Of a DNA stretch of 43,333 bases, positions 13,114-34,958 are shown piece by piece. The first letter of the stretch is position 1, and each line of letters starts with the position of its first letter. Below the pieces are notes generated by a model that had not been told where the DNA came from, did not search any database, and saw nothing but the letters and a program-made list of their open reading frames with translations. The position numbers and the translations under genes are program-made. The stretch covers positions 1 to 43,333 of the IMG/VR virus record IMGVR_UViG_3300047473_000048; one strand, 5' to 3'. The DNA is from a virus.

Positions 13114-13291
13114 GGCCCTTCCTTTGGGGGAGTTTCCCCAAAATCCTCGGGGATCATACACTCTCGGACATTGCTCCGTCAAGGCTTTTGAAGCAACCTC
13201 GCAAGCTCGGTTGCTTCAAAAGCCTTGACCTCACATGTCCGAGAGTGTATGCCCCCTCGGCCTTTTGGGTCACTCCCCCTGCGGGGGGCCT
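13114..13291 (+). repeat. Palindromic element, copy 1 (intergenic, between scaffold and capsid genes)
   Basis: A 178-bp imperfect hairpin, read on the plus strand. Outer stem: GGGGGAGT (13126-13133) pairs with ACTCCCCC (13272-13279), extended outward by a weaker six-pair helix containing wobble pairs. Next, CCCAAAA pairs with TTTTGGG and GGGG with CCCC. The central stem ATACACTCTCGGACAT (13156-13171) pairs perfectly with 13235-13250. The inner 19-bp stem (13180-13198 with 13209-13227) is closed by the loop TCGCAAGCTC. Copy 2 at 34,681-34,860 has the same plan, the same central stem and loop, but different paired bases in the inner and outer stems. Here it fills most of the 236-bp gap 13,087-13,322, whose flanks otherwise show nothing beyond the next gene's ribosome binding site. 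Confidence 0.9.
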
Positions 13292-17077: not shown

Positions 17078-17866
17078 TTAACCTCTCTGATTTTGCAAAT
17101 GCCCCGTCGGATCTGGGTACGGGTCAAATTCAAACTGCATTTGCCGCCGGTTATGGCCCGGAAGTGCGCCTGGCCGGCCGCCCCACTCGTCGTAGGGGCG
17201 CATAACGGCCAGATTAATGCCAGTCATAACCAGATACCGAGTGGCGTCCATCAAGTGATCATCCAATTTGACGATTTTGCCCTTTTCGTCTCGCCTATAG
17301 ATCCGATATTCATTCAGCCAATTGAGGCAGGTCTTGAAAACCTTCAATCGGCCCGTTGAAAGCCTGCTCCAGACCTTATAAAGGCCCGCTTGGACGGCAT
17401 TATCGGCGGAAACTAGGCTCAATCCTAAGGCCATATATTCTTCCATTATCTTTTCGCCATCGCGCTGGCTATGTCCGTTAGCCGCGGGGTCAATTGTGCC
17501 CGGAACCCACAACCCCCGAGACTTTATTGCCTCGGCGTGGATTGGGGGTTCGGCCTCGCCCCGATAATATTCGTTGTAGAGGTAGAGGATGTCGGTTTCT
17601 GGGTCCAGCGCACCCCAAATAACCGCCGTCCGCCTCCAACCCACGTCCATTCCGTAGGCATATTTGTAATAGGCCGGAATGACAAAAGGCTCACACGTTA
17701 CATCGTCTTCATCGACGGGGTAAATGGCGCCGGCTCCAAGGGAAGGTATGCCCTTAGTCCGGGCGGCCCTCTCATTCGGCAAATAACTGGCCTCAAGCGA
17801 GGCTTTGGCCGCGTCATCGAGGTGGGGAACGTCCTGCCAAGAGGCAAATACGGCGAATTTACTCAT
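17078..17866 (-). CDS. Large terminase, C-terminal nuclease half (split gene)
   Basis: 262 residues; ATG at 17866 overlaps the stop of the ATPase half (ATGA). The sequence begins where an intact large terminase would continue: SKFAVFASWQDVPHLDD, then RTKGIPSLGAGAIYPVDEDD. The RNase H-fold nuclease follows, with YAYGMDVGWRRTAVIWGALD (first catalytic Asp), GLWVPGTIDPAANGHSQRDG, VFKTCLNWLNEYRIYRRDEK and DDHLMDATRYLVM (distal acidic site). It cuts concatemeric DNA to end packaging. In related phages these regions are one polypeptide. The two halves lose no recognisable sequence, so they may assemble into a working enzyme. Confidence 0.8.
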   Translation of the reverse strand: MSKFAVFASWQDVPHLDDAAKASLEASYLPNERAARTKGIPSLGAGAIYPVDEDDVTCEPFVIPAYYKYAYGMDVGWRRTAVIWGALDPETDILYLYNEYYRGEAEPPIHAEAIKSRGLWVPGTIDPAANGHSQRDGEKIMEEYMALGLSLVSADNAVQAGLYKVWSRLSTGRLKVFKTCLNWLNEYRIYRRDEKGKIVKLDDHLMDATRYLVMTGINLAVMRPYDEWGGRPGALPGHNRRQMQFEFDPYPDPTGHLQNQRG

Positions 17867-18633
17867 TGTGGCAACGCGCCTTCAAGACGGGCGCCACCGG
17901 GCATATAACTTAAGACTACGCCCGAGAGACCTTTTAGGGGCGTGAAGGTACACATTACGATCCCGGAGGGCTGGCCGGGGACTGTGGACATCGTGCGAGT
18001 TAGACCTTCAGTGTAAAGCCCGATGGGAGGTTCCTCATCAAACAACATCACCCCGACTTTCGACGCCTGAAAGCTTTCACGGCCCTGGTCGTAGGACTTC
18101 AAAACCAATCGCCAAGCTCCACCCGACTTGTGTTTGACGGTGATACTGTCAACGGCATCTGGTACGCCCGATCGGGGCGTCGTGTTTAGGATTTTGTCTG
18201 CGGGAATCAGGCCCGTCCCAAAGGCATTTGGCTTGCCTAACAGAGTCTCCTGGACGCTCTCGCGCACGGCCTTTGAGTCCTCGCCTGCCGCCCAGGCAGT
18301 GTCGGGCTCATAAAACCTTCGGCCGACCCACCAAGGAGGATACCAGCCGGTCATGTGGCACGTCAATTCATAACAGGCCGCCATGGTCTTGCCGACGCGG
18401 TTGGCGGCGATGAACCCGCGCTCTTGATGAATGGCTCCGGCCGCGAAGAAGGCCATGTGCTTAGGGTAGAGTTCTCGGCGGAGTGGCCCGGTGTCAGGAA
18501 AGAGCCTGTAAAGAAGGTTTTGTGATTGGATTTTTTGTTCCGCGTCCAGAAAAGCCACCAGCTTCGCAAGTTCCCGTGGCGGCAGGTTGGCGACCTGATC
18601 TTCCGTTAGATTGAGGAACTGGTCTGGGATCAT
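17863..18633 (-). CDS. Large terminase, N-terminal ATPase half (split gene)
   Basis: 256 residues; ATG at 18633 overlaps the upstream TGA. An N-terminal helical part (LPPRELAKLVAFLDAEQKI) is followed by the packaging ATPase: Walker A-like AANRVGKT at residues 76-83, adenine-side RYEPD-like segment, Walker B VMLFDEEPP at ~195-203, and the coupling motif TFTPLKGLS near residue 230. The frame stops at GGARLEGALPQ, directly before the nuclease half in the next frame (minus one relative to this one). No slippery heptamer is visible at TTGCCACAATGA, so coupled reinitiation is more likely than frameshifting. Confidence 0.85.
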   Translation of the reverse strand: MIPDQFLNLTEDQVANLPPRELAKLVAFLDAEQKIQSQNLLYRLFPDTGPLRRELYPKHMAFFAAGAIHQERGFIAANRVGKTMAACYELTCHMTGWYPPWWVGRRFYEPDTAWAAGEDSKAVRESVQETLLGKPNAFGTGLIPADKILNTTPRSGVPDAVDSITVKHKSGGAWRLVLKSYDQGRESFQASKVGVMLFDEEPPIGLYTEGLTRTMSTVPGQPSGIVMCTFTPLKGLSGVVLSYMPGGARLEGALPQ

Positions 18634-19859: not shown

Positions 19860-20171
19860 AAGCGGGGCCTCAAGAGGTAGAAGGCGGGAGCGCTTCGCGG
19901 GGAGAGGAGCCGAGGACTGGCCCTGGTTTCGACCGTCCCGCCACAGTCCGGTCTTGGCCTCTTGGCCTTTGCTTGTCCTCGGCTCCAATGTCACCGGCGC
20001 TGCCGGGCGTAGGACCCAAATCACTACGGACGGCTAAAGATGCTGCCAAGGCGACAAAAGTAGTATAGCATAGGGGCAGAGCTACTAAGGATAGTGTCAA
20101 TGGGTTAAGGTTACAAACTCCTAAACAGGGGGCTCTAAGGGCCTTGGCGGGGGGCGGGGAGCCCTGAGGAG
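19860..20171 (-). other. 312-bp gap upstream of the small terminase gene
   Basis: No convincing gene. On the leftward strand there is a TTGACA (20095-20100) and two -10-like hexamers, TATGCT (20067-20072) and TATACT (20062-20067), but the spacings are 22 and 27 nt, outside the normal sigma70 range. An early/late boundary promoter could lie here because the gap separates a nuclease gene from the packaging genes. The right part holds G-rich and C-rich runs (GGCGGGGGGCGGGGAG). Confidence 0.3.
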
Positions 20172-22822: not shown

Positions 22823-23305
22823 ATGCCAAACCCTCCCGCCACCCCCACCACCCTCACCTATGCCGACTACACGGCCCTATTCCAACTTTTCTTCACAATG
22901 GACAAAGGCCGCTCTCCCGGCAGCAGAGGCAAAGCCGCCGCCGGCACCAGAGGCAGCCCCCCAGGCGGCCACTCCCCAACAATCCCCCGCTATCCCTACG
23001 CCCAAGAAGGCATCCAAATCATCTTCCTCTCCCTCGGCTACAACCCCTACGAAGCCCTTCGGCTTTTCCACCTCGCCCTAGCCTTCGGCGTCATCCGCCA
23101 AGTCTTCGGCTCCCGTTGGAAAACCAAAGGAGTATACAAGCCTTACAAAGGCCCCCGCTACATCCGCCAAGCCTGGTCATTCCACCTAGCCGAAATCATG
23201 GAACAAACCGCCCAAATCGAAGAAGCCCAAAGAGCCGCCCAAATCGAAGCCCAAGCCCAAACCCAAGCCCAAGCCCAAGGAAAGGCCCAAACCAAATGTC
23301 CATAA
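22823..23305 (+). CDS. Hypothetical protein, first gene of the rightward operon (160 aa)
   Basis: ATG at 22,823 with AGGAG 13 nt upstream. The N-terminus is Pro/Thr-rich. Residues ~30-60 are Gly/Arg/Pro-rich (GRSPGSRGKAAAGTRGSPPG), and the middle has a hydrophobic, likely helical segment (EGIQIIFLSLGYNPYEALRL). The C-terminus is a Gln/Ala run (QAQTQAQAQGKAQ) from CAAGCC hexamer repeats. It has no recognised domain. As the first early gene, it could be a host take-over or regulatory protein (inference). Confidence 0.5.
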   Translation: MPNPPATPTTLTYADYTALFQLFFTMDKGRSPGSRGKAAAGTRGSPPGGHSPTIPRYPYAQEGIQIIFLSLGYNPYEALRLFHLALAFGVIRQVFGSRWKTKGVYKPYKGPRYIRQAWSFHLAEIMEQTAQIEEAQRAAQIEAQAQTQAQAQGKAQTKCP

Positions 23306-24144
23306 CCCAAGACCGCCTCATGACCCTAATCGAAATCGCCGGCAAAACAATGGAGTATGCCAAAGCCCTACAAACCTCTGCCTTCCGCAATCTCCGCCAA
23401 GACCTCCTCAACATCAACCAAGCCCTAAAACAAACCTCCGATCCCTTCGTCATTATCGTCCTAAAAACCTACCAAAACCGCCTTAACACGCTGGAAACTT
23501 TCCAACATTCAACACCACTAGACGAAACCCTTTTTGAAAGGCTGGTCGAGGAAAGAACTCACTTCAAGTTCTCCAAAGGAAGGAACAATCGAGCTCGGGA
23601 ATACTACGCCAACAAACGCGGAGAAGCTTACCAACCACGCCAACCAACCGCGCCAACCCCCTCGGCAAGAACCCAACCCACCCGACTCATCATCTCCCAA
23701 GAGGATATAAACCAAGCAGACTGGGAACTATACCAAGCAGACGTTGCCAAACAACGCGCCCAAGAGAACGCGGACCTTATCAAACAACGTGCCCAAGCCC
23801 AAGAAGACCTGGACCTTGCCACACAACGCGTCCAAGCGAACGCGGACCTTGCCACACAACGCGTCCAAGCGAACCTTGCCAGACTACACGCCAACTGCCA
23901 AGCCGCGGAGCGCAAAGCCTTCAACACTCCCCGCCCCCGCGAAGCGAACCAAGGCCCACCCCAAATCCCACCCCAAATCCCAACCTTCACCATGTCCCTC
24001 GAAACGGCCATGAGTATTCTCGGAATCACAGAGTTGCGCTTCCCACGCGAAGGCGAAGACCCATGGACAATAGACACGCCCCAAGCCCAAGAAGCCTACG
24101 AAAGGGTCTCAGCCGAACTCAATAACACTTCCTCTATTTTCTAA
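23296..24144 (+). CDS. Coiled-coil hypothetical protein with tandem repeats (282 aa)
   Basis: ATG at 23,296 overlaps the preceding gene by 10 bp and has AAGGAAAGG upstream; the longer frame from 23,116 is a shadow. The N-terminal 100 residues are helical (QDRLMTLIEIAGKTMEYAKA, NRLNTLETFQ). Residues ~135-200 form an Ala/Gln/Arg coiled coil including two copies of DLATQRVQANA, encoded by a 33-bp tandem repeat (23,812-23,874). The C-terminal part is Pro-rich then globular (FTMSLETAMSILGITELRFP). The family is not recognised; a structural or scaffold-type role is possible. Confidence 0.5.
   Translation: MSITQDRLMTLIEIAGKTMEYAKALQTSAFRNLRQDLLNINQALKQTSDPFVIIVLKTYQNRLNTLETFQHSTPLDETLFERLVEERTHFKFSKGRNNRAREYYANKRGEAYQPRQPTAPTPSARTQPTRLIISQEDINQADWELYQADVAKQRAQENADLIKQRAQAQEDLDLATQRVQANADLATQRVQANLARLHANCQAAERKAFNTPRPREANQGPPQIPPQIPTFTMSLETAMSILGITELRFPREGEDPWTIDTPQAQEAYERVSAELNNTSSIF
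23812..23874 (+). repeat. 33-bp in-frame tandem repeat, 1.9 copies
   Basis: GACCTTGCCACACAACGCGT then CCAAGCGAACGCG, repeated exactly except for the truncated end of the second copy. It encodes DLATQRVQANA twice. Identical copies indicate a recent duplication. Confidence 0.85.
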
Positions 24145-24160
24145 CCCCCACCAAACCCAA

Positions 24161-24216
24161 ACCCACGCGCGCTCGCAACGGTGGGGTCCGCCAAACCCAT
24201 GCGCGCTCGCAACGGT
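24161..24216 (+). repeat. Dispersed 22-33 bp repeat, copies A and B
   Basis: Copy A (24,161-24,193) reads ACCCACGCGCGCTCGCAACG followed by GTGGGGTCCGCCA. Copy B (24,195-24,216) reads ACCCATGCGCGCTCGCAACG followed by GT. Copy C lies 5.1 kb away at 29,358-29,390. A and C share all but three of 33 bases. All three are in intergenic DNA upstream of early genes. Confidence 0.85.
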
Positions 24217-24312
24217 AGCCAAAGCCAAACCCCCGCCAAGCTCGGATTGGTTAATGAAAGGTTAACCTAAGTTGGCATGCTTCTTGCATACTTCTTGCAT
24301 AGAAACGAACCC

Positions 24313-24341
24313 TTGCAAGATACCCTCTTTTCTGTCATAAT
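24313..24341 (+). promoter_or_regulatory. Rightward promoter candidate for the early operon
   Basis: TTGCAA (24,313-24,318), a 17-nt spacer and CATAAT (24,336-24,341). Transcription would start near 24,348, about 100 nt before the 109-residue gene at 24,447. It lies downstream of the palindrome and repeats that could be operators. Confidence 0.6.
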
Positions 24342-24446
24342 CCTCCTTCGACCCAGGCCAAGTCAGCGCTCGCGCTCCACCTCGGACTTTAAGCTAAGAC
24401 TTAAGCTAAGACTTTAGAATTAAATCACATGCTAGGAAGTGCTCAA

Positions 24447-24776
24447 ATGAAAACCACCGGAACCATCGAAACTACCAACGGTCATTTATTCACCCGAGAC
24501 CAACTCCTTGACCTTGACTGGCTCCGTATGGAAGTTGAAACCATCATAGAACGCGACTACGGCATTAGTCCTGCTGGTCTTAAAGTCCTTGCCAAACTAA
24601 ATGTCAATATCAAATGTCCAGAAGGCTCCGGCGCTATTCCCAAACTCAAACGTCAAGGCTTTGTTACCTACGAGACGCGTCCTTCCAAATACTACCCGAA
24701 TTTCTTCACCAATATCCCTGTCATTACTCCCAAGGGCTTCGAAGCTCTCGCCGTCGCTCGTTCTCTAGGCTGGTAA
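24447..24776 (+). CDS. Hypothetical protein (109 aa), possible winged-helix
   Basis: The ATG at 24,447 has AGGAAG 9 nt upstream; the in-frame ATG at 24,429 lacks one. The sequence LFTRDQLLDLDWLRMEVETI, VLAKLNVNIKC, and IPKLKRQGFVTYETRPSKYY with PVITPKGFEALAVARSLGW suggests a small helix-wing fold like phage DNA-binding proteins (helices then a beta hairpin and a closing ITPKGxEAL). This could be an early regulator, but the assignment is by general pattern only. Confidence 0.45.
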   Translation: MKTTGTIETTNGHLFTRDQLLDLDWLRMEVETIIERDYGISPAGLKVLAKLNVNIKCPEGSGAIPKLKRQGFVTYETRPSKYYPNFFTNIPVITPKGFEALAVARSLGW

Positions 24777-24781
24777 TTACC

Positions 24782-25162
24782 ATGACCCAAACTCCCCAAA
24801 TCATCATTACCTTTGTCGCCGGCTCGACCCATGACCTCCAAGTCGAAACGTGGATCAACGGCCAGCGCATCCTAACCCCGCTCCAAGACGGCACAGAAAT
24901 CCTTCAAATCCGTTGCCTTCTCCAAGAGCAAAAGCTCAAAGCCCTAAACGCAGCCAAGATCGACACGGCCATTGCCAAACAAAAGGACGACAAACGTCGG
25001 GCCAAGATCCAAGATTACGTTAGGGAATATCACCCTCGCCAGCTCGCCCTTGTCATGGGCCACGAAGCGCGCCTCAAACCAAGCTCGGCCTCAAGCCCAA
25101 GCGAAGCCCAAACAGAAGCCAACTTCCTAATCGCCCTTGCTACCAAAAACGACATTTTTTAG
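24782..25162 (+). CDS. Hypothetical protein (126 aa)
   Basis: ATG at 24,782, eight bases after the upstream stop. N-terminal beta strands (IIITFVAGSTHDLQVETWIN) are followed by a long charged helix (ALNAAKIDTAIAKQKDDKRR, AKIQDYVREYHPRQLALV) and a Ser/Ala tail. It is in the early operon between two other small unknown genes. The family is not recognised. Confidence 0.5.
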   Translation: MTQTPQIIITFVAGSTHDLQVETWINGQRILTPLQDGTEILQIRCLLQEQKLKALNAAKIDTAIAKQKDDKRRAKIQDYVREYHPRQLALVMGHEARLKPSSASSPSEAQTEANFLIALATKNDIF

Positions 25163-25189
25163 TCCCTTCCCTAACTAGGAGTCACCATT

Positions 25190-25507
25190 ATGTCTCGTTA
25201 CTTCTCTATCTCTAACGGCCTTCGTGGCTGCTACATGCCTGACAGCGCTTCGATTGTTCGCGTTGATACGCGCAAAGAATTGAAAGCGCTTGTCACCTAT
25301 GAGGCGCAGTTTGTCTTGAATGACGGGGACAAGGGCGGCAGCAAGAAGGCAATCGCCGCCGTAGTCGCGTCCACTTGGCGCGATCGTTCGGCCAGCTTGC
25401 CCTATTGCCTTACGATCAAGCCAGCTGGTTCCGGATCGTACCACTACGGACTTTTTATTGGTAACGCGACGCGCGCGGAATATCTCGCCAACGAAGAGGA
25501 ATCGTGA
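25190..25507 (+). CDS. Conserved hypothetical phage protein (SNGLRGCYMPDSAS)
   Basis: 105 residues; ATG at 25,190 with AGGAG. The start RYFSISNGLRGCYMPDSASI and VDTRKELKALVTYEA, then AIAAVVASTWRDRSASLPYC and YGLFIGNATRAEYL, recall a small early protein found in many phages of Proteobacteria. Its function is unknown. It overlaps the next gene's GTG start. Confidence 0.55.
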   Translation: MSRYFSISNGLRGCYMPDSASIVRVDTRKELKALVTYEAQFVLNDGDKGGSKKAIAAVVASTWRDRSASLPYCLTIKPAGSGSYHYGLFIGNATRAEYLANEEES

Positions 25508-25509
25508 CC

Positions 25510-25770
25510 ATGACCCAACTCCCCTGTATCCATTCTAACGGCACTTCTCGCCAATCCCTTTTCGACCAATACGAAACTGCTTGGCACGCCGTCGATAAGG
25601 CCCTCGACGCCCTTGGCGCCATCGAAGTCCACGGTCGCGATTACTATCCCCTCGGCAGCGAAGCCGCCTCCACCGCCCATAAAGAACATAGGGCGCGGAT
25701 AAAGGCCCTCGCCACCGTAAAAGAAGAGCTTTTCCAAATCCTCGATCACATAGAAATGAAAAGACCCTAA
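25510..25770 (+). CDS. Conserved hypothetical phage protein (GRDYYPxG)
   Basis: 86 residues from the ATG at 25,510; a GTG two codons earlier (25,504) overlaps the upstream stop and is an equally coupled start. The sequence SLFDQYETAWHAVDKALDAL, HGRDYYPLGSEA and HKEHRARIKALATVKEELFQ forms helix-turn-helix-like coiled segments. GRDYYP and the spacing recur in small phage proteins of unknown function. Confidence 0.55.
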   Translation: MTQLPCIHSNGTSRQSLFDQYETAWHAVDKALDALGAIEVHGRDYYPLGSEAASTAHKEHRARIKALATVKEELFQILDHIEMKRP

Positions 25771-25846
25771 CTCCACCACCACCACCACCCAGAGCCGCCT
25801 AGCGGCACCACGGCCCGAGGGCCAAACCACGAAAGTCACCGCCACC

Positions 25847-25903
25847 ATGACCCAAATTTTCATCCTCGCCCATCCGACCTCTACCTCCGTGGTAGGCCAC
25901 TGA
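25847..25903 (+). CDS. Possible 18-residue leader peptide before the AAA+ ATPase gene
   Basis: ATG at 25,847 to TGA at 25,903, product MTQIFILAHPTSTSVVGH; the next start follows after one base. No good ribosome binding site is visible. The 76 bp before it hold two small hairpins (GCCGC/GCGGC and GGCCC/GGGCC). It may be a translational leader or chance. Confidence 0.25.
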   Translation: MTQIFILAHPTSTSVVGH

Positions 25904-25904
25904 C

Positions 25905-27317
25905 ATGGCCCGTCGCACCCTCGCAGACTATGAAGCCATCATAGGCCAGCCACCCCGCGCCGGCAACACCAGTGCCATCTTAGACGCTACCGGCCACAAC
26001 ATCCACAAGGCCGAGGCCCTCACCGAATGGCTTGTTTTGAGCGGCATCCCAGCGAAGTCCGCTCGCCAAGCCTCTGCCTTCAACCGGGCCAAAGCCTATG
26101 CTATCCCCAATTATCTCGGTGGCTGGCGCAAAAACGTCAACCCTAGCTTTGCCATCCTGGCTGATGGTCTCGAAGCCCTCGAAAGCTTCGACTTTGACAG
26201 CCAAAGTCCAAGCCCAAGCCCAGGCCCAACCTCACCGGAGCCTCTCCCCACGTCCGAACCCATGCCAGAACCCCAACATCTCAAAACCATGATATCGGCC
26301 GAGGTCTCCACCGCCGTCGCCAAATTCATGTCCACTTACAAAGTCGAAGTTGAACTCGGCCCCAAAGAAAAGGCCAAAGTCCAAGAGTGGACTAGAAGCG
26401 AAGCCCAACTCGAAGCTGAGGCCGTGGCCCTAGCCACTATCACCAAGCTAATGCCCCCTCGGACCATCACCATCGCCAACCCCCTCAAGGGCACCACCAT
26501 CCCTATCGGCCTTCAACACAAAAACTTCGACAAACTTCTTCGCGCTTGCCAAACCCGCGATCACAAAGGCCATCGCCTGAATATTTGGCTCACAGGCTCC
26601 ACAGGCTCTGGCAAAACCTCGGCAGCAGCCGCCGTCGCCAAAGCCCTAGAGCTTCCTTTCGGCGCCGACAGCTCCCTGGACGCCGATTACAAAGTCTTTG
26701 GCTATAACAACGCCCAGGGCCAATATGTTGGCACTGAGTTCTTTCGGATCTTCACTGGAGGCGGCGTGTATATCGCCGATGAGATAGATGCCTGGCACCC
26801 TTCGGCCTTGGTCGCCCTCAACTCTGCCCTTGCCAACGGTTTTGCCAACTTCCCATGCGGTATGAAAACACGTCACCCCGACTGTATCATAATCGCTTGT
26901 GCTAATACTTGGGGCATGGGCGCGACCAACGATTATGTCGGGCGCTCAAAGCTTGACGCCGCCACGCTCAATCGGTTCCAACCTAAAATCGAGTGGCCCC
27001 TCGACGAAGACCTCGAAAGCGCCATAGCCCAAGCCCAGGCTGGCGATCTCGGCATTCGCTGGCACGATCTAGTCTGCAAAGTCCGTCGAGCCGCCTCTAC
27101 CCAAGGAATTAAGATCATCATTAGCCCCCGAGATACTATCAACGGCATTGCCCTACTACTCCAAGGCTTCACTTGGGGCGAAACCGTGGAAATGACCTTT
27201 GGTGCAGGTCTAAGCCTCGACCAGCGCCGTTCTCTCCAACTCGGCCCTGAGCTAGTGTCCACCTTCAAGGTCGCCCATCACCAAGAGGCCCAAGGGGCAA
27301 AGGAGTTAGCAGAATGA
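25905..27317 (+). CDS. MoxR/CobS-type AAA+ ATPase
   Basis: 470 residues. The N-terminal ~90 residues have an HTH-like helical region (ALTEWLVLSGIPAKSARQAS), followed by a Pro/Ser linker (SPSPSPGPTSPEPLP) and a helix. The AAA+ module starts near residue 195: Walker A GSTGSGKT (231-238), Walker B GVYIADEID (~286-294), sensor-like IIACANTWG and arginine-rich DYVGRSKLDAATLNRF. The lid is C-terminal. This matches MoxR/CbbQ/CobS ATPases carried by phages, which remodel a protein partner using ATP. The next gene is translationally coupled (ATGA) and encodes a DUF7192-like protein, matching the ATPase-plus-VWA-type pairing of this superfamily. Confidence 0.8.
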   Translation: MARRTLADYEAIIGQPPRAGNTSAILDATGHNIHKAEALTEWLVLSGIPAKSARQASAFNRAKAYAIPNYLGGWRKNVNPSFAILADGLEALESFDFDSQSPSPSPGPTSPEPLPTSEPMPEPQHLKTMISAEVSTAVAKFMSTYKVEVELGPKEKAKVQEWTRSEAQLEAEAVALATITKLMPPRTITIANPLKGTTIPIGLQHKNFDKLLRACQTRDHKGHRLNIWLTGSTGSGKTSAAAAVAKALELPFGADSSLDADYKVFGYNNAQGQYVGTEFFRIFTGGGVYIADEIDAWHPSALVALNSALANGFANFPCGMKTRHPDCIIIACANTWGMGATNDYVGRSKLDAATLNRFQPKIEWPLDEDLESAIAQAQAGDLGIRWHDLVCKVRRAASTQGIKIIISPRDTINGIALLLQGFTWGETVEMTFGAGLSLDQRRSLQLGPELVSTFKVAHHQEAQGAKELAE

Positions 27318-28132
27318 TCCGCCTCTTTGACAGCCCCAACTCCCTCGCCGAGGCTTATGCCATCGCCCGTCCTGGGAACGCCCGTCCTAGGAAAACTCAC
27401 AGCCCCTACCTCCTCACATGGTTCGGCGGGGAAACTCGCGAGGAAAGCCTCCACCGAGCATCCGTCGGCGATGCCAGCCTCGTTCCCCAAGCCGAAGCCC
27501 TTCTATCGTCCTTTGACTTCGCCATCGAAACCCCTCACAAGGAAATCCACCCTTGCGTAGCCGGAGGCTGGCCCTCAATCCCCGACACTCTCGCCGGCAG
27601 GCCCCTAACCATGCGGCGGATCGTCCACCAACCCGACGAAAATGCGCCCATAACCATCCTAGTCATGGGCGTCAGTTCAGGCGAAATCAGCGCCCCCATC
27701 CTCCACCGTCGAGGCGTTGGTATCTTAGCCCTAGTCATGGCCCTAGCCCGCGCTCGGCCCATTACCCTCAAACAAGTCGCCACCATGCACGGCCACGACG
27801 CCGCAGGCGAAACCATTTTCGTCACTCACATCAACACAGCGCCCCTTGACCTCGCCTCGGCTTGCTGGACCCTAACTTCCCAAGGCTTCATGCGACGCAT
27901 GAACTACGACCTCGCCGAGACCATCAACGGCTTCGATGGGAATTGGCCCCAAAAATATCGCTACGGCAATGCCCAATCCTATCTCGACTACATTGTCACC
28001 CTCCTCGGCTATGATCCTGCCACCACCCTCGTCATCAAGCCCGCGGAAGCAAACGACGATCTAGTTCGAAGGCCCGTCCAATGGATCACGGAGCAAGTAA
28101 ACAAATTCATCACCAAAGATGAAGAAGAATAA
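27314..28132 (+). CDS. DUF7192-like partner of the AAA+ ATPase
   Basis: 272 residues; its ATG overlaps the ATPase stop. The pattern LLTWFGGETREESLHRASVG, DASLVPQAEALL, CVAGGWPSIPDTLAGRPLTM and RRIVHQPDENAPITILV, then ILALVMALARARPITL and NTAPLDLASACWTLTSQGFM, fits the phage DUF7192 family as I remember it. The central part looks like a von Willebrand A-type Rossmann fold (ITILVMGVSSGEIS in place of DxSxS), so it may be the adaptor or substrate acted on by the ATPase. The usual MIDAS Asp-x-Ser-x-Ser is not intact here. Function in infection unknown. Confidence 0.6.
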   Translation: MIRLFDSPNSLAEAYAIARPGNARPRKTHSPYLLTWFGGETREESLHRASVGDASLVPQAEALLSSFDFAIETPHKEIHPCVAGGWPSIPDTLAGRPLTMRRIVHQPDENAPITILVMGVSSGEISAPILHRRGVGILALVMALARARPITLKQVATMHGHDAAGETIFVTHINTAPLDLASACWTLTSQGFMRRMNYDLAETINGFDGNWPQKYRYGNAQSYLDYIVTLLGYDPATTLVIKPAEANDDLVRRPVQWITEQVNKFITKDEEE

Positions 28133-28145
28133 AGGAACCCCACAA

Positions 28146-28400
28146 ATGACCTCCATCCCCTACGCCAAGCTCTCGGAACTTCGACCCGGCGACAACCTGA
28201 TCGCCGACATCGGCTTCAATTGCCTCCGCCCAGGCTTTGTTTGCAAAGTCTTCGCCGAAGGCGACCAACTCTACATCACCTGCGCCAAAGGAAGACACTG
28301 GCTGACCGAGCAACTCTACGGCGACACATTAGTCGGCTTTTGGCTTCAAGAAGAGAAGCCCAAAACCCAAAACCCCTCCAACCAAGGACCCCAATCATGA
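28146..28400 (+). CDS. Small SH3-like hypothetical protein (84 aa)
   Basis: ATG at 28,146 with AAGGA; the frame from 28,119 has no ribosome site. IPYAKLSELRPGDNLIADIG, FVCKVFAEGDQLYITCAKGR and HWLTEQ look like a small beta barrel of the kind read as KLSELxPGDxVxADxGF in phages. Its stop overlaps the next start (ATGA). Function unknown. Confidence 0.5.
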   Translation: MTSIPYAKLSELRPGDNLIADIGFNCLRPGFVCKVFAEGDQLYITCAKGRHWLTEQLYGDTLVGFWLQEEKPKTQNPSNQGPQS

Positions 28401-28639
28401 CCTTCGGCCACAACCCCACCCATCCCCAAGCCAAAAAGGCCCGGGCCGCCTCGATCAAAGACGACCTACCCTATTGGCAACAAATCCAAGTAAACCTCAT
28501 CTTCACCGCTCTAGGTACCACCCCCACCGCCACCAAGCAAGCCATCATCCGAGCCCTTCAGTTCGCCTATCGCAAAGGCTATACCAAAGGCTACGGCGAT
28601 GGTACCAACATCGTCCAACAGGAAGCCCTCCCATCATGA
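28397..28639 (+). CDS. Small hypothetical protein (80 aa)
   Basis: ATG at 28,397 overlaps the previous stop. Basic N-terminus (HPQAKKARAASIKDDLPYWQ) followed by a helical/Gly segment (AIIRALQFAYRKGYTKGYGD). Couples to the next gene by ATGA. The family is not recognised. Confidence 0.45.
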   Translation: MTFGHNPTHPQAKKARAASIKDDLPYWQQIQVNLIFTALGTTPTATKQAIIRALQFAYRKGYTKGYGDGTNIVQQEALPS

Positions 28640-28872
28640 CCCCCCGCGAACGCGCAAGCGCCATTGCCGACGCCCAAAACGCTTTAGACAGGCTCAAGCC
28701 CCTCCGCTCCCGAGCCCAATTTCTAGGCCCAATCCTTGACCTGCCAAAAGGCCCTGAACTCCGTGTCGTCACGGCCTACTACTTACAGGATGGCGCCCTT
28801 TGGGCTCACGGCGTTTACCTCCACCGCCATTTCTTCGAGGCTTGGCTCCAGCCAAAGGACGCCCAGCCATGA
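28636..28872 (+). CDS. Small hypothetical protein (78 aa)
   Basis: ATG at 28,636 overlaps the previous stop. An N-terminal helix (RERASAIADAQNALDRLKPL) is followed by beta strands (LRVVTAYYLQDGALWAHGVY). Coupled on both sides by ATGA. The family is not recognised. Confidence 0.45.
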   Translation: MTPRERASAIADAQNALDRLKPLRSRAQFLGPILDLPKGPELRVVTAYYLQDGALWAHGVYLHRHFFEAWLQPKDAQP

Positions 28873-29330
28873 CCTCCGCTCACTCCATCCTCATTTACCA
28901 AGTCTTCGACTGGACCTCCGACGATGGCGCCCACCAAGTCCGTTTTTGGGCTACTCCTATCCTCGAAGCCATTGCCAAAGGCACCCTTCCCCATGAAAAA
29001 CTAGCTGTCCTGCTCGACCGCGAATGGTGCCGTCTTTGGCTTACCAAGCGTGACCCCGATATCATCAAGGTCCGAGCCTTTACCCAAGCCCAAATCGACG
29101 AGCCCGTCCTCGGCATCGAAATACCCGAGCGCCATCCCAACGGCCATCCCACCATCCTCCTAATCGACGGTAGCCATCGAATGTACCGTCGCTATTTGGA
29201 CAACTACGAAGATTGCCTCTGGCATGTAGTCCGCTACCCCCACTGGCTACCCTACAGCGAGAGCTTCGGCAAGCCCCTTCCCACACCCACACCCAAAACC
29301 AAAAACAAAGACCCATGGATATGGATATGA
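28869..29330 (+). CDS. Hypothetical protein with ParB-like LIDGSHR motif
   Basis: 153 residues, ATG at 28,869 in an ATGA overlap. The segment TILLIDGSHRMYRRYLDNYE resembles the nucleotide-binding loop of ParB/sulfiredoxin-type domains (xxDGxHRxxAA) and is preceded by IEIPERHPNGHP, followed by LWHVVRYPHWLPY. Small phage proteins with VVDGNHRxVRR exist, with unknown function. The C-terminus has a PTPTPK low-complexity tail. Confidence 0.5.
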   Translation: MTSAHSILIYQVFDWTSDDGAHQVRFWATPILEAIAKGTLPHEKLAVLLDREWCRLWLTKRDPDIIKVRAFTQAQIDEPVLGIEIPERHPNGHPTILLIDGSHRMYRRYLDNYEDCLWHVVRYPHWLPYSESFGKPLPTPTPKTKNKDPWIWI

Positions 29331-29337
29331 GCCCTCT

Positions 29338-29352
29338 CCCCGCGAAGCGGGG
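29338..29352 (+). repeat. Very stable mini-hairpin CCCCGCGAAGCGGGG
   Basis: A 6-bp GC stem closed by a GAA loop; the centre is GCGAAGC, known as an exceptionally stable DNA mini-hairpin. It lies in the 98-bp gap before the gene at 29,429 and immediately precedes copy C of the dispersed repeat. No U-run follows, so termination is unlikely. Confidence 0.6.
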
Positions 29353-29357
29353 TGGAA

Positions 29358-29390
29358 ACCCATGCGCGCTCGCAACGGTGGAGTCTGCCA
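29358..29390 (+). repeat. Dispersed 33-bp repeat, copy C
   Basis: ACCCATGCGCGCTCGCAACG followed by GTGGAGTCTGCCA; three differences in 33 from copy A at 24,161-24,193. It lies between two early genes, 40 bp before the next start. Confidence 0.85.
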
Positions 29391-29428
29391 GCCAACCCCA
29401 ATCCAAACCCTCCAAGGAGCCTTCTCCC

Positions 29429-29653
29429 ATGACCAAACCTAAATCCGCCACCTCCAACCCCGCCAATCCCAATCGTTGGGACCCCACCATCGCCGAAGCC
29501 TTCCCCAGTTTCGGCCCTCACTCTCGCGACCTCCTTAAATCCCTCATGCAAACGGCCTACCTAATCGGAAAAGTCGAAGGCATCACCCACGCCACCAAAA
29601 TCCTCGGCCACGACCCCCTCTCTCAACCCCAGCCAAAGGACACTCGGCCATGA
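29429..29653 (+). CDS. Small hypothetical protein (74 aa)
   Basis: ATG at 29,429 with AAGGAG 9 nt upstream. After a polar N-terminus (KPKSATSNPANPNRWDP), HSRDLLKSLMQTAYLIGKVE and GITHATKILG suggest two helices. Coupled to the next gene by ATGA. The family is not recognised. Confidence 0.45.
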   Translation: MTKPKSATSNPANPNRWDPTIAEAFPSFGPHSRDLLKSLMQTAYLIGKVEGITHATKILGHDPLSQPQPKDTRP

Positions 29654-29943
29654 CATCCCCCACTTCCTCCCTCCCCACTCTTAACTCCCTTACCATCTAT
29701 GCCGAACTCCAAGCTCTCTTCGATGAAATCCGCCACCGAGTCGGCCCTTGCAACATTAGCCTATGGTCTTGGGCCTCCGACGAAGTAGACTTCCACATCA
29801 AAACTGGCTACGGCGCCAACGAGATCGAGGTCCGCGGCAAAGAAATTTGGGTCATTTGCGAAGAGTTCATCCGCCGCCGCGACTTTACCGAAGGCCAGAA
29901 GACCCTGAAACTAGGACCGCCCACCATCGACAACGAGCCCTAA
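29650..29943 (+). CDS. Hypothetical protein (97 aa)
   Basis: ATG at 29,650 overlaps the previous stop. Helix then beta strands (IYAELQALFDEIRHRVGPCN, ISLWSWASDEVDFHIKTGYG). Last gene before a terminator-like hairpin, so it closes a transcript segment. The family is not recognised. Confidence 0.45.
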   Translation: MTSPTSSLPTLNSLTIYAELQALFDEIRHRVGPCNISLWSWASDEVDFHIKTGYGANEIEVRGKEIWVICEEFIRRRDFTEGQKTLKLGPPTIDNEP

Positions 29944-29968
29944 CCACGGCTTCGCTGCCAGGCGTAAG

Positions 29969-30002
29969 AGGGCCACAAGCAAGCTCCTTGTTTGTGGCCC
30001 TT
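29969..30002 (+). terminator. Intrinsic terminator-like hairpin
   Basis: AGGGCCACAAGCAAG pairs with CTTGTTTGTGGCCCT around a CTC-type loop, one mismatch, followed by TTTA. It lies 25 bp after the stop of the 97-residue gene and before the next gene at 30,063. Confidence 0.6.
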
Positions 30003-30062
30003 TAGCGCTTGCCAGCCCCCTCCAAACCTGCTAAGATACCCTCTCACGTGGAGATCCTTCAA

Positions 30063-30368
30063 ATGCCCCGGCCCTCCCATTACACCGACGTACTAAACGC
30101 CATTGTCAAGCAAATGAACCTCGACCGCGATATTTCTTCGACCGAAGAACTCATCATCCTGGCCGATATTTTCTCCCACTTCAACGGCGTCTATCACGTC
30201 GCCGCCAGCCTAACCCTAGAGGACACCATCCGCTTCGTCCACCGGATTATCTGCCACGCCTCGGCCGAATACTTTAAAGACGCCGCCGCGGACATGGCCC
30301 TCTTCAAGCGCCGCGAAAGGTCCCAGGCCACCCAGGCCACCCATCTCGGTTCTTCCAAACTCGACTAA
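30063..30368 (+). CDS. Hypothetical protein (101 aa)
   Basis: The ATG at 30,063 has GGAG upstream; a TTG at 30,009 sits inside the post-terminator sequence and is rejected. Mostly helical: YTDVLNAIVKQMNLDRDISS, EELIILADIFSHFNGVYHVA and RFVHRIICHASAEYF. As the first gene after the hairpin it may begin a new transcription segment. The family is not recognised. Confidence 0.5.
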   Translation: MPRPSHYTDVLNAIVKQMNLDRDISSTEELIILADIFSHFNGVYHVAASLTLEDTIRFVHRIICHASAEYFKDAAADMALFKRRERSQATQATHLGSSKLD

Positions 30369-30382
30369 GGGACCAAGCCTCG

Positions 30383-30742
30383 ATGAACTACTTCGCCGCC
30401 GACAGGCCCAAACTCTCCCCCAGCAGCCGACCCATGTTCACGACCCTTCCCTATTCTCTGCCCCCTCTCATCATCAATCCAAAGGCCGAAGGCATTTTCA
30501 CCGTCACCGTTTGGTTGGCGATGGAAACTAACGGCTTCCAACCTCACACTTGCGAAGTCACCACCCAGCGCCTAACCTATCTCCTAGAGGACTACATCGA
30601 AGACCCCGAGCTAATCTTAGCCCTGTTCTTCGGCTGGCATCCGCCCCAAGCCAAGCCCCAAGCCAAGCCCCAAGCCAAGCCCCAAGCCAAGCCCCAAGCC
30701 AAACCTACACCCTTCTTCCCAGTCCCTGAAGGATTTCTCTAA
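30383..30742 (+). CDS. Hypothetical protein with QAKP repeats (119 aa)
   Basis: ATG at 30,383, AGGGA upstream. A beta-rich core (GIFTVTVWLAMETNGFQPHT, RLTYLLEDYIEDPELIL) is followed by five copies of QAKP encoded by a 12-bp tandem repeat (30,644-30,703). The stop overlaps the next ATG (TAATG). The core is not recognised. Confidence 0.5.
   Translation: MNYFAADRPKLSPSSRPMFTTLPYSLPPLIINPKAEGIFTVTVWLAMETNGFQPHTCEVTTQRLTYLLEDYIEDPELILALFFGWHPPQAKPQAKPQAKPQAKPQAKPTPFFPVPEGFL
30644..30703 (+). repeat. 12-bp in-frame tandem repeat, five copies
   Basis: CCCCAAGCCAAG repeated five times (last copy with one change), encoding QAKP units. Likely slippage-prone; copy number may vary between phage isolates. 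Confidence 0.9.
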
Positions 30743-31050
30743 TGACCCAACCCGCCACAACCCCCGCCACTACCCACGCCCGCCCCCGCAGGACCTCTGG
30801 CCTCTTCGTCACCACCCAAGACCCCGTCGTCGGCACCCTTCAATACGCCATCCAAACCTCGGGCCTTACCGCCGCCCAAATCGCCGCTGAGGCCCTATGC
30901 TCTTGGCAAACTGTCCAACGTATCGTCGACGGAGCTTCCAAGCAACCCCGCAATTCCACCGTCGAGCGCATCCTCCTCGCTTGTGGCGTTACACGACTAC
31001 TATTCCGCCGCGATAGCGAAGGCAGAAAAGTAGAACTCACTCAGAGTTAA
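30742..31050 (+). CDS. Helix-turn-helix DNA-binding protein
   Basis: 102 residues; ATG at 30,742 in a TAATG overlap. Residues ~35-80 (LQYAIQTSGLTAAQIAAEAL, CSWQTVQRIVDGASKQPRNS, TVERILLACG) have an XRE-like layout: helix, T-x-x-x-I-A-x-x-A turn, recognition helix W-x-T-V-x-R-I-V-x-G, then the N-S-T-V-x-R-I-L-x-A-x-G closing helix. The N-terminus is a polar arm with PRR. A likely early regulator; the palindromes near 24,250 are possible targets. Confidence 0.65.
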   Translation: MTQPATTPATTHARPRRTSGLFVTTQDPVVGTLQYAIQTSGLTAAQIAAEALCSWQTVQRIVDGASKQPRNSTVERILLACGVTRLLFRRDSEGRKVELTQS

Positions 31051-31054
31051 TCCC

Positions 31055-31282
31055 ATGACCCGAACCCCCCTCGATCGCACTAAGAAGAATTTTACTTCCC
31101 GCCAAATCTCTGGCTACCGTAGCCAACTCATTAGCGCGATTAATTGTTCGACCGACGGAGCCTACGCCGAAGTAGACCTCACCACGGCGAGGAACCTCGT
31201 CATGATCCTCAACCAAGCCATAGCTACGGAATACGCCAAAGAACACCCCTACGCTCAATCCTCAGAGGACATCCCCGAATGA
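31055..31282 (+). CDS. Small hypothetical protein (75 aa)
   Basis: ATG at 31,055 just after the HTH gene. Basic N-terminus (RTPLDRTKKNFTSRQISGYR), then helices (DLTTARNLVMILNQAIATEY). Coupled by ATGA to the DUF6948-like gene. The family is not recognised. Confidence 0.45.
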   Translation: MTRTPLDRTKKNFTSRQISGYRSQLISAINCSTDGAYAEVDLTTARNLVMILNQAIATEYAKEHPYAQSSEDIPE

Positions 31283-31815
31283 CCCACGATCTCAAACTCA
31301 AAGCCCTTTTGAACGCCGCCATTGCCAATGTTTGGAAAATCAAATCCATTGACATTGACACCGAAGCCTTGGTTCACCTGCTTCGTGAAATGGCCAACGA
31401 AGTTGAAGCCGAAGAAGACGACGAAAGCGCCGAAGCCGAGGCCCCAGACGCGGCCGAAATTCAGCGTCTGCGGATCGAGAACGGGCAATTGCGGAAAGAA
31501 CTGGAGCATATTCAAGCCAACCATCCGAACCGACCGAAGAATGAAGAGCGCGCTGTTCTGGTTACGACCGCGCATCGTGGTGTTTTCTTTGGCTACGCGA
31601 CAGAGACCGATGGCGCGGTGATCAAACTGCGCGCCGCTCGGAACTGCATATATTGGCCTCCTGAAAACAAGGGATTTCTTGGGCTCGCAACAGAAGGTCC
31701 GAAGTCTGGCGCGAGAGTAGGCCCTGCCGCTGACATCGAACTCCGTGACATCACTTGCGTTGCGGCGTGCACCGATAAAGCGGTAGAGGCATGGGAAAAG
31801 GCACCATGGAAATGA
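31279..31815 (+). CDS. DUF6948-like protein with coiled-coil N-terminus
   Basis: 178 residues from ATG 31,279 (ATGA overlap). Residues 20-85 are acidic coiled coil (EVEAEEDDESAEAEAPDAAE, IQRLRIENGQLRKELEHI). Residues ~95-178 match the DUF6948 pattern: AVLVTTAHRGVFFGYATETD, RAARNCIYWPPENKGFLGLA, TEGPKSGARVGPAA and ACTDKAVEAWEKAPW. Such proteins are widespread in phages and unexplained. The stop overlaps the first Gly/Tyr-rich frame. Confidence 0.6.
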   Translation: MTHDLKLKALLNAAIANVWKIKSIDIDTEALVHLLREMANEVEAEEDDESAEAEAPDAAEIQRLRIENGQLRKELEHIQANHPNRPKNEERAVLVTTAHRGVFFGYATETDGAVIKLRAARNCIYWPPENKGFLGLATEGPKSGARVGPAADIELRDITCVAACTDKAVEAWEKAPWK

Positions 31816-32117
31816 GCCATGAACCCCAAGTCATTATTTTGCGAGGTGAACCGCCTAGTAAAATAAGCTCTAGCTATGGCTCAGGCTATGGCTTGGGCGA
31901 TGGCTCAGGCTATGGCTCGGGCTATGGCTCGGGCCATGGCTCGGGCTATGGCTATGGCTCGGGCGATGGCTCAGGCTCTGGCTTTGGCAATGGCTCAGGC
32001 TATGGCTCGGGCTATGGCTCGGGCCATGGCTCGGGCTATGGCTCGGGCTATGGCTATGGCGATGGCAATGGCTCAGGCTATGGCATGGGCATTGGCATGG
32101 GCATGGGCTATGGCTGA
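31812..32117 (+). CDS. Gly/Tyr/Ser-repeat protein, frame A
   Basis: 101 residues; ATG at 31,812 overlaps the upstream stop (ATGA), so it belongs to the operon. A normal N-terminus (MSHEPQVIILRGEPPSK) leads into GX repeats: SSYGSGYGLGDGSGYGSG and similar to the end. Every second codon is GGC, while the alternate codons vary (TAT, TCG, TCA, GAT, AAT, CAT, TTT, TTG, ATG), so the Gly-X frame is the one under protein-level selection. It ends at the TGA inside ATGGCTGATGG, where frame B starts. Low-complexity aromatic-glycine proteins can form hydrogels, polyglycine-II-like rods or condensates; which applies here is unknown. Confidence 0.6.
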   Translation: MSHEPQVIILRGEPPSKISSSYGSGYGLGDGSGYGSGYGSGHGSGYGYGSGDGSGSGFGNGSGYGSGYGSGHGSGYGSGYGYGDGNGSGYGMGIGMGMGYG

Positions 32118-32710
32118 TGGCTATGGCTCCGGCGACGGCAATGGCTTTGGCATTGGCTCAGGCTATGGCTATGGCTATGGCTACGGCAACGGCAATGGCT
32201 TTGGCGTTGGCTATGGCCATGGCTCGGGCAATGGCTCAGGTTATGGCTGGTTCGATGGCATTGGCTATGGCTCAGGCGATGGCTCAGGCTATGGCATGGG
32301 CATGGGCTTGAGCGATGGCTCTGGCTCTGGCGATGGCTCTGGCTCTGGCTTTGGCTATTATGGCAATGGCAATGGCTTGGGCGATGGCTCTGGCTCTGCC
32401 TTTGGCGATGGCTTGGGCAACGGCAATGGCTTTGGCGATGGCTTAAGCTATGGCTGATGGCTATGGCTACGGCAACGGCAATGGCTTGGGCAATGGCTAT
32501 GGCTATGGCTCGGGCGATGGCTCAGGCTATGGCATTGGCAATGGCTCAGGCTATAGCTCAGGCTATGGCTCAGGCTATGGCATGGGCGATGGCTCAGGCA
32601 ATGGCATGGGCAATGGCTATGGCTATGGCTATGGCTTGGGCGATGGCTCTGGCTCTGGCTCGGGCTTTGGCTCTGGCTCGGGCTATGGCTCGGGCTATGG
32701 CTCTAGCAAC
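31866..32710 (+). repeat. GGC-NNN hexamer-type repeat tract of about 845 bp
   Basis: Irregular alternation of GGC with TAT, TCG, TCA, GAT, AAT, CAT, ATG, TTG and TTT codons, such as GGCTATGGCTCGGGC, without an exact long unit. The GGC phase changes by one base at each of two ATGGCTGATGG junctions (32,110 and 32,450). All three forward frames are open for long stretches, but only the GGC-phase frame has variable second codons. Confidence 0.9.
32110..32457 (+). CDS. Gly/Tyr/Ser-repeat protein, frame B
   Basis: 115 residues; ATG at 32,110 overlaps the end of frame A by 8 bp (ATGGCTGA). Starts MADGYGSGDGNGFGIGSG and continues with GYG, GNG, GHG, GDG and GFG units, plus one WFDG and one YYGNGNG. 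It lies one base further on in frame than A. Translation may reinitiate at the overlap, or a plus-one shift at GGC-TGA would fuse A and B. It ends in an identical ATGGCTGA. Confidence 0.55.
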   Translation: MADGYGSGDGNGFGIGSGYGYGYGYGNGNGFGVGYGHGSGNGSGYGWFDGIGYGSGDGSGYGMGMGLSDGSGSGDGSGSGFGYYGNGNGLGDGSGSAFGDGLGNGNGFGDGLSYG

Positions 32711-32743
32711 AGCGAACTCAATTTGAGGACCAACCCTAAGTAA
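32450..32743 (+). CDS. Gly/Tyr/Ser-repeat protein, frame C
   Basis: 97 residues; ATG at 32,450 overlaps the end of frame B by the same 8 bp. Starts MADGYGYGNGNGLGNGYG and ends outside the repeat with YGSSNSELNLRTNPK, a non-repetitive tail that argues this frame is the true C-terminus of the set. Followed 10 bp later by the HIRAN-like gene. Confidence 0.55.
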   Translation: MADGYGYGNGNGLGNGYGYGSGDGSGYGIGNGSGYSSGYGSGYGMGDGSGNGMGNGYGYGYGLGDGSGSGSGFGSGSGYGSGYGSSNSELNLRTNPK

Positions 32744-32753
32744 AAGGAACTGC

Positions 32754-33182
32754 ATGATGAACTCCGCCACAACTCTAACCTTTCCCATCGTCGGAGCTTA
32801 CTACCACAAGCCCGCCCAAAGCATACTCTCGGTCCTAGCCCTCGGCACCGAACTTTGGCTCCATCCAGACCCGTCCAACCCTTACGACTCCCACGCCGTC
32901 GAGGTCATCCTCAAAGCAGGGAACCTTAGCGAAGCTGCCTTAGCCATCTTAGCCGAGAAGCTCCCTTACGACGGCTTTACCATCGACCAATTTCTTTCTT
33001 GGTCTCAGGTAATGCTCGGCTTCCTATCCCGCGGCGCAGCCACCCCGGCCATAACCCGAAGCCCCATCGACCTCAAGGGAACCTATTGGCTTTCGGCCCG
33101 TCAAACCCATTGTATCCAAGTCCAGCAAGTCCAGGCCGAGATCATTTCCCTCGACGCCCAACTAAAGGTCTTAACTCCATGA
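32754..33182 (+). CDS. HIRAN-like domain protein
   Basis: 142 residues; ATG 32,754 (or 32,757) with AAGGAA. Residues ~8-55 (LTFPIVGAYYHKPAQSILSV, LALGTELWLHPDPSNPYDSH, AVEVIL) fit the HIRAN pattern: VVGxxxx...L..G..L.L...P.NPYD.NAV.V. HIRAN domains bind DNA ends or damaged DNA and are often attached to helicases; stand-alone phage versions exist. The C-terminus has a second beta segment (LGFLSRGAATPAITRSP) and a helix. The stop is shared with the next start (ATGA). Confidence 0.55.
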   Translation: MMNSATTLTFPIVGAYYHKPAQSILSVLALGTELWLHPDPSNPYDSHAVEVILKAGNLSEAALAILAEKLPYDGFTIDQFLSWSQVMLGFLSRGAATPAITRSPIDLKGTYWLSARQTHCIQVQQVQAEIISLDAQLKVLTP

Positions 33183-34656: not shown

Positions 34657-34958
34657 CTTCCTCCGTCCTCACGCCCTTGCCTTGCCCCTGGGGGTGGTGT
34701 CTTCCCAAAATCCTCGGGGATTATACACTCTCGGACATTGCTCCGTCAAGGTCTTTAAGGGCAACCTCGCAAGCTCGGTTGCCCTTAAAGACCTTGACCT
34801 CGCATGTCCGAGAGTGTATAACCCCTCGGCATTTTGGGTCACACCACCCCAAAGGGCAGGCACCGCCTCTCCACCCCCGCGATATCATCTACAACATCCT
34901 AGCCAACACCAAATCCAACATCATAGGTCTACTCAATATTCTCGGAGAGAAGGAATAA
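34653..34958 (+). CDS. Small early gene interrupted in frame by palindromic element copy 2
   Basis: 101 codons from an ATG that overlaps the upstream stop (ATGA), the usual arrangement in this operon. About eight to ten residues (MTSSVLTPLP) precede the element, about 60 are encoded by the element itself (LPKILGDYTLSDIAPSRSLR and onwards), and the last ~30 resume a phage-like helix (HPRDIIYNILANTKSNIIGL). The 180-bp element length is a multiple of three and no stop interrupts this frame. Without the insert the product would be about 41 residues. In-frame palindromic insertions are known as Rickettsia palindromic elements; whether this product is made is unknown. Confidence 0.5.
   Translation: MTSSVLTPLPCPWGWCLPKILGDYTLSDIAPSRSLRATSQARLPLKTLTSHVRECITPRHFGSHHPKGQAPPLHPRDIIYNILANTKSNIIGLLNILGEKE
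34681..34860 (+). repeat. Palindromic element, copy 2 (inside a small early gene)
   Basis: A 180-bp imperfect hairpin with the same plan and orientation as copy 1. Outer stem GGGGTGGTGT (34,691-34,700) pairs with ACACCACCCC (34,841-34,850), extended outward by CTTGCCC / GGGCAGG. CCCAAAA pairs with TTTTGGG and GGGG with CCCC. The central stem 34,723-34,738 pairs perfectly with 34,804-34,819 and is identical to copy 1. The inner 20-bp stem CAAGGTCTTTAAGGGCAACC (34,747-34,766) pairs with 34,777-34,796; copy 1 has CAAGGCTTTTGAAGCAACC with matching changes on the other side. The loop TCGCAAGCTC is the same. The internal-loop strands TGCTCCGT and ACCTC(A/G)C are also conserved. Confidence 0.9.

Follow-up and report, generated by a model that had tools for sequence, protein, structure and literature searches.

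The IMG/VR virus record IMGVR_UViG_3300047473_000048 (43,333 bp; the whole stretch was analysed and is henceforth called the window) contains a long tract of alternating GGC and variable codons (GGC-NNN) downstream of a gene for a protein with the DUF6948 domain. This gene (31279–31815, + strand; PF22253, 79.6 bits against a cut-off of 27, and 81.3 bits in a second scan) carries the domain in its C-terminal half and is the upstream partner of the first repeat gene. The tract (31873–32704, + strand, three phases) was delimited by Viterbi decoding and Tandem Repeats Finder (TRF). The Viterbi decode alone gave a single tract at 31873–32701 (829 bp; the longest of all decoded tracts, runner-up 481 bp) with exactly two frame-changing phase breaks, each being one extra base (G at 32116 and G at 32456, turning TAT into TGAT), and a third phase break at 32359 that stays in frame. 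Deleting both extra Gs in silico yielded a single open frame of 311 amino acids (aa). As it stands, the tract is read in three successive open reading frames (ORFs) on the + strand, and their coordinates and junctions confirmed the three Gly-repeat frames with identical overlaps that a preliminary description of this DNA had reported. ORF A (31812–32117) encodes a VIILRGEPP N-terminal motif followed by (Gly-X)n, X being the residue of the variable codon. ORF B (32110–32457) encodes MADG-(Gly-X)n without the VILRG motif and without non-repeat ends, and ORF C (32450–32743) encodes MADG-(Gly-X)n and is non-repeat only at its tail, SSNSELNLRTNPK. For ORF A, the ATG at 31812 was favoured, with an ATGA overlap with the DUF6948 stop (31813–31815), over an alternative start at 31806. 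A Shine–Dalgarno (SD)-like site, AAAAGG (31796–31801, + strand), lies upstream of 31806 with an anti-SD duplex of −5.6 kcal/mol, and the sites of ORFs B and C are weak (−3.2 and −2.6 kcal/mol, respectively). Pfam matches of all three ORFs to “TrAA12” were under the cut-off, look compositional, and were rejected. BLASTN of the tract against phage records returned only partial matches at 67–77% identity, as low-complexity DNA predicts.

The two junctions inside the tract consist of the same 22-bp sequence, GCTATGGCTGATGGCTATGGCT. At junction 1 (32107–32128, + strand), ORF A stops at TGA 32115–32117 and ORF B starts at ATG 32110; at junction 2 (32447–32468, + strand), ORF B stops at TGA 32455–32457 and ORF C starts at ATG 32450, each pair sharing the 8-nt overlap ATGGCTGA (32110–32117 and 32450–32457). 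Start-to-stop spacing is hence −8 nt at both internal junctions and −4 nt at ORF A, inside the range of termination-reinitiation, for which starts between −8 and about +6 nt relative to the stop are given (PMC10666635). The 60 bp 3′ of both junctions were 87% identical, beyond the 99th percentile of in-phase pairs, and the likeness of ORFs B and C at their 5′ side had a permutation p of 0.001 (first six X codons) and of < 1/300 (local alignment). By these measures ORFs B and C are homologous at their 5′ ends, and their likeness just 3′ of their starts supports an origin of one junction by copying of the other. The junction pattern GGC-TGATGGC occurred on viral contigs in at least 119 stretches, none of those examined lying inside a GGC-NNN tract.

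Relatives were collected by searching IMG/VR with the DUF6948 protein and subsequently with alignments (best 80 per alignment scan; about 295 relatives), and 11 further relatives came from a single scan of GTDB genomes. Once duplicates were removed and a downstream sequence of at least 150 bp was required, a Gly-X tract was located directly 3′ of DUF6948 in 144 of 146 distinct genes; the Gly-X gene is a near-constant DUF6948 neighbour, so that the expectation of Gly/aromatic low-complexity proteins being rare in phage early regions is not supported. Its start precedes the DUF6948 stop in 87 of 91 relatives, bearing out the proposed coupling of ORF A to the DUF6948-like gene, and its frame relative to that stop is identical in 85 of 91, being the frame of ORF A. 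The N-terminus of the relatives’ Gly-X proteins carries a (V)ILRGxxP-like motif, which in ORF A is VIILRGEPP and is absent from ORFs B and C. Each of the three ORFs falls inside the size range of the relatives’ single Gly-X genes. Of the 124 complete tracts, 90 have a conserved domain of about 115 aa fused in frame to their end, whereas 34 lack it; the window, in which no match to this DUF7666-like domain was found, is among the latter. A model of the domain had a predicted local distance difference test (pLDDT) score of 93 and a fold matching DUF7666 proteins, which occur in phages and giant viruses, and searches of the domain against PHROGs, NCBIfam, and Pfam gave nothing except weak DUF7666 matches in 3 of 40 members. 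By position and predicted product, ORF A is the conserved DUF6948-linked Gly-X gene minus the DUF7666-like domain, and DUF6948 plus the Gly-X gene is a previously undescribed, widespread phage gene pair. The window thus shares gene order, overlapping start, relative frame, ILRG motif, and a GGN-NNN tract with DUF6948-linked Gly-X genes of uncultured phages (IMG/VR) and of bacterial and archaeal contigs (GTDB), and differs from them in a tract read in three frames, its length (829 versus ≤ 481 bp), its larger number of X-codon types, and the missing C-terminal domain. Instead of the single-frame GGN-NNN layout it has two frame-changing sites, which is unusual, since only 1 of 170 distinct relative tracts (35 kb) had a frame-shifting indel. 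That tract (L258) also lacks the C-terminal domain, and its indel creates no immediate stop.

Open frames alone prove little here, as a GGC-NNN tract leaves the other two frames nearly stop-free. The argument that only the GGC-phase frame of each segment has variable alternate codons is circular, because the GGC phase follows any indel; the coding constraint for which it had been advanced was supported by a different test. X codons of the NAR type (purine third base) came to 0/72, versus TCR in 27 of the 38 TCN serine codons, a difference significant in each segment (Fisher p of 2e-8 for ORF A, 9e-4 for ORF B, and 3e-6 for ORF C). There were no stops among 142 X codons (P = 4e-7 under independent bases, the significance of which is overstated by the non-independence of repeat units). 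This codon choice fits protein-level selection in the GGC phase of each segment. Glycine was encoded by GGC in 131 of 132 codons of the window tract, and each relative tract likewise keeps one Gly codon (mean 99%; GGC, GGG or, once, GGT), pointing also to repeat turnover at the DNA level. The codon kept differs by phage (GGG in L017, L168, and L195; GGC in L003 and L006), and TAC/TCC/GAC or TAT/TCT/GAT make up almost all X codons of the relatives. X-codon entropy in the window (3.47 bits, 18 types) was the highest among all tracts.

Three relatives, L271, L233, and L276, independently carry predicted tandem Gly-X ORFs with stop-start overlaps. In L271 (IMGVR_UViG_3300047457_001149; L401:4375-5385), four Gly-X ORFs follow DUF6948 in rotating frames with TGATG or ATGA joins, each with PKLIRG near the start (LIRG in the first) and GYSEDV near the end; a further Gly-X stretch, sharing the frame of the DUF6948 gene, is found upstream. 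L233, a contig of a Polyangiaceae metagenome-assembled genome, has three Gly-rich ORFs with ATGA joins, of which the later copies lack the VILRG motif and the third starts with MSDGDGYG (compare MADGYG in the window). In L276 (IMGVR_UViG_3300005833_000026), duplication of the DUF6948 3′ end together with the start gives a second Gly-X ORF. The window resembles these arrays in its serial Gly-X ORFs after DUF6948 (two to four in the relatives), rotating frames, and short stop-start overlaps. It differs in overlap length (−4 or −1 nt in L271 and L233), and the copies of L271, with non-repeat sequence between them, retain their complete motifs at both the N and the C terminus. The count of arrays misses Gly-X genes outside its glycine and spacing limits, chiefly those with the C-terminal domain, and its zeros are not absences. 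Comparison with related phages, which had been proposed as a check, thus showed that a single tract in three frames is not typical and at the same time uncovered tandem overlapping arrays, from which it follows that the Gly-X family forms tandem coupled copies.

We consider it slightly better than an even bet (roughly 0.55) that three (Gly-X)n genes stand here as a tandem array and are translated serially by termination-reinitiation after DUF6948. In the ancestral module, DUF6948 would have been followed by a Gly-X gene, the stop of the first overlapping the start of the second, and the repeat region would have been enlarged by copying of a stop-start-bounded unit with a length of 1 mod 3, so that with every copy the frame moves on by one and the ATGGCTGA junction appears again. 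Ribosomes finishing DUF6948 would reinitiate at ORF A, next at ORF B, and next at ORF C, with a yield that probably drops stepwise, and the outcome would be several short Gly-Tyr/Ser/Asp/Asn-rich chains per DUF6948 protein. We infer that reinitiation occurs and that all three proteins are made. With their weaker SD sites, ORFs B and C would depend on ribosomes completing the preceding ORF. The −8 overlap ATGNNTGA is a recognised class of termination-reinitiation overlap and the third commonest prokaryotic overlap (PMC10666635). The window shares this overlap, the co-directed genes, and the chained starts with gene pairs coupled by termination-reinitiation (PMC10666635, PMC6728339), and differs from them in that its ORFs, whose coupling is predicted, sit in one repeat tract and share sequence. 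Short overlaps are enriched among subunits of complexes (PMC10666635), a hint that the DUF6948 and Gly-X proteins may function jointly.

Several observations weigh against serial reinitiation of three genes. The SD sites of ORFs B and C are weak, coupling across −8 overlaps is less efficient than across shorter ones (PMC10666635), and both ORFs lack the conserved N-terminal motif and are not complete copies with non-repeat ends of their own. None of the other 170 tracts has a stop-restart junction within a continuous repeat. NATGGC is found 65 times in the tract, i.e., a restart codon near a stop comes cheap, and 2.9% of random insertions in the tract yield a stop with a nearby restart; given a composition so rich in restart codons, the overlap could be a by-product of a single G insertion. 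Likewise, the frame changes could be younger than the coding signature. A possible, if somewhat doubtful, alternative is that a one-base insertion interrupted an over-expanded single Gly-X gene and was afterwards copied to a second place in the repeat, only ORF A being functional and ORFs B and C being leftovers under relaxed selection after loss of the C-terminal domain. Removal of both Gs restores one 311-aa frame like that of the relatives, and L258, the sole other frame-shifted tract, is likewise without the C-terminal domain; the missing N-terminal motif of ORFs B and C and the highest X-codon entropy, as in a tract escaping homogenisation, agree with such decay as well. It accords poorly with ORFs B and C being free of stops and NAR codons despite their high codon diversity and with both insertions belonging to the uncommon class (8%) in which the frame ends immediately, and it is weakened further by the tandem arrays of L271, L233, and L276.

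A fault of assembly or sequencing, whereby the real genome would lack both extra Gs or junction 2, appears improbable. This type of tract does break contigs: 43 of 170 relative tracts reach a contig end, and G001, a second contig of the same phage from an independent assembly, lacks 22858–32888, so the tract itself is outside that comparison (one end lies 145 bp past the tract). No second copy of the tract sequence was found in G001 or by exact 26-mer search. Over the about 23 kb along which G001 aligns to the window, there were nonetheless no frame-shifting indels in named genes, all indels being in-frame sets or outside named genes (including a net 17-base difference near 20149–20169, between genes as read). 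The longest exact repeat in the window tract is only 54 bp, so that short-read assembly can resolve the tract, which may be why it was assembled through, and an error would not typically insert the same base outside a homopolymer at two places whose upstream flanks differ. The preliminary description had left open whether coupled reinitiation produces three proteins or +1 shifts at GGC-TGA fuse them into one of about 300 residues. Shifting by +1 at a stop codon is known from prfB, the gene for RF2, and the two sites in the window are identical; programmed +1 frameshifting is even so disfavoured as very improbable. Re-pairing of the P-site tRNA-Gly from GGC to GCT would be mismatched at the middle base, there is no SD-like stimulator upstream (the SD pairing being weak), and the shift site is not conserved, the one frame-shifted tract among the 170 relatives having no stop. 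The fused product would moreover be longer than any relative’s Gly-X protein. Reinitiation is the likelier of the two, as its overlap belongs to the ATGNNTGA class and the relatives’ arrays with ATGA and TGATG joins need no shift.

The DUF6948 domain is predicted to be an Sm/LSm-like beta-barrel, which we regard as a structural lead only. An AlphaFold model built with 19 homologues had a pLDDT of 91, and Foldseek matched it to Sm/LSm chains with a probability of 1.00, an E-value of about 3e-3 at best, and template modelling (TM) scores of 0.4–0.7, Sm chains being over-represented in the PDB. The modelled barrel resembles chains of the Sm/LSm/Hfq RNA-binding proteins and differs from them in an extra helix between strands; the likeness comes from the predicted fold, and no sequence match of DUF6948 to Sm/LSm was found. 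Neither DUF6948 nor the Gly-X protein had a defence match in PADLOC, no homologue of DUF6948 or of the C-terminal domain was found in cultured phages, and no paper naming DUF6948 was found in the literature. Uncultured phages, as well as some bacterial and archaeal contigs, keep DUF6948 and Gly-X together almost without exception. The pairing places two domains of unknown function in a common context and provides a testable guess, namely an Sm-like fold with a disordered partner. The Gly-X chains would then serve the predicted Sm-like protein as a flexible partner that possibly self-associates. More speculatively, and as an unlikely rather than a favoured extension, the module could be a viral RNA-granule or condensate system that pairs the predicted Sm-like protein with a coupled low-complexity Gly-Tyr/Ser/Asp protein, with phages tuning the amount or valency of this partner via repeat length, gain or loss of the DUF7666-like domain, or reinitiating copies. 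The window illustrates how copying of its own stop-start junction may multiply a repeat-protein gene, and its tract is a natural construct for measuring the reach of serial reinitiation.

Other features of the window were recorded alongside the tract. A HIRAN-domain gene (32754–33182; PF08797, just over the cut-off) lies directly 3′ of ORF C and had weak PADLOC matches to PDC-M03B. At 30643–30702, five perfect copies of GCCCCAAGCCAA are located in an ORF at 30383–30742 (encoding KPQA repeats), where a second frame is also open. A nested hairpin element of about 146 bp is present in two copies (13137–13279 and 34704–34849, 88% identical), with outer arms of 35 nt and inner arms of 21–22 nt, the latter being fully complementary within each copy though the copies differ. 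The large terminase is split inside the Terminase_6N domain into two ORFs on the − strand (17863–18633 and 17078–17866) with an ATGA overlap, and a sequencing error is unlikely, because the independent contig G001 matches this region at 100% identity.
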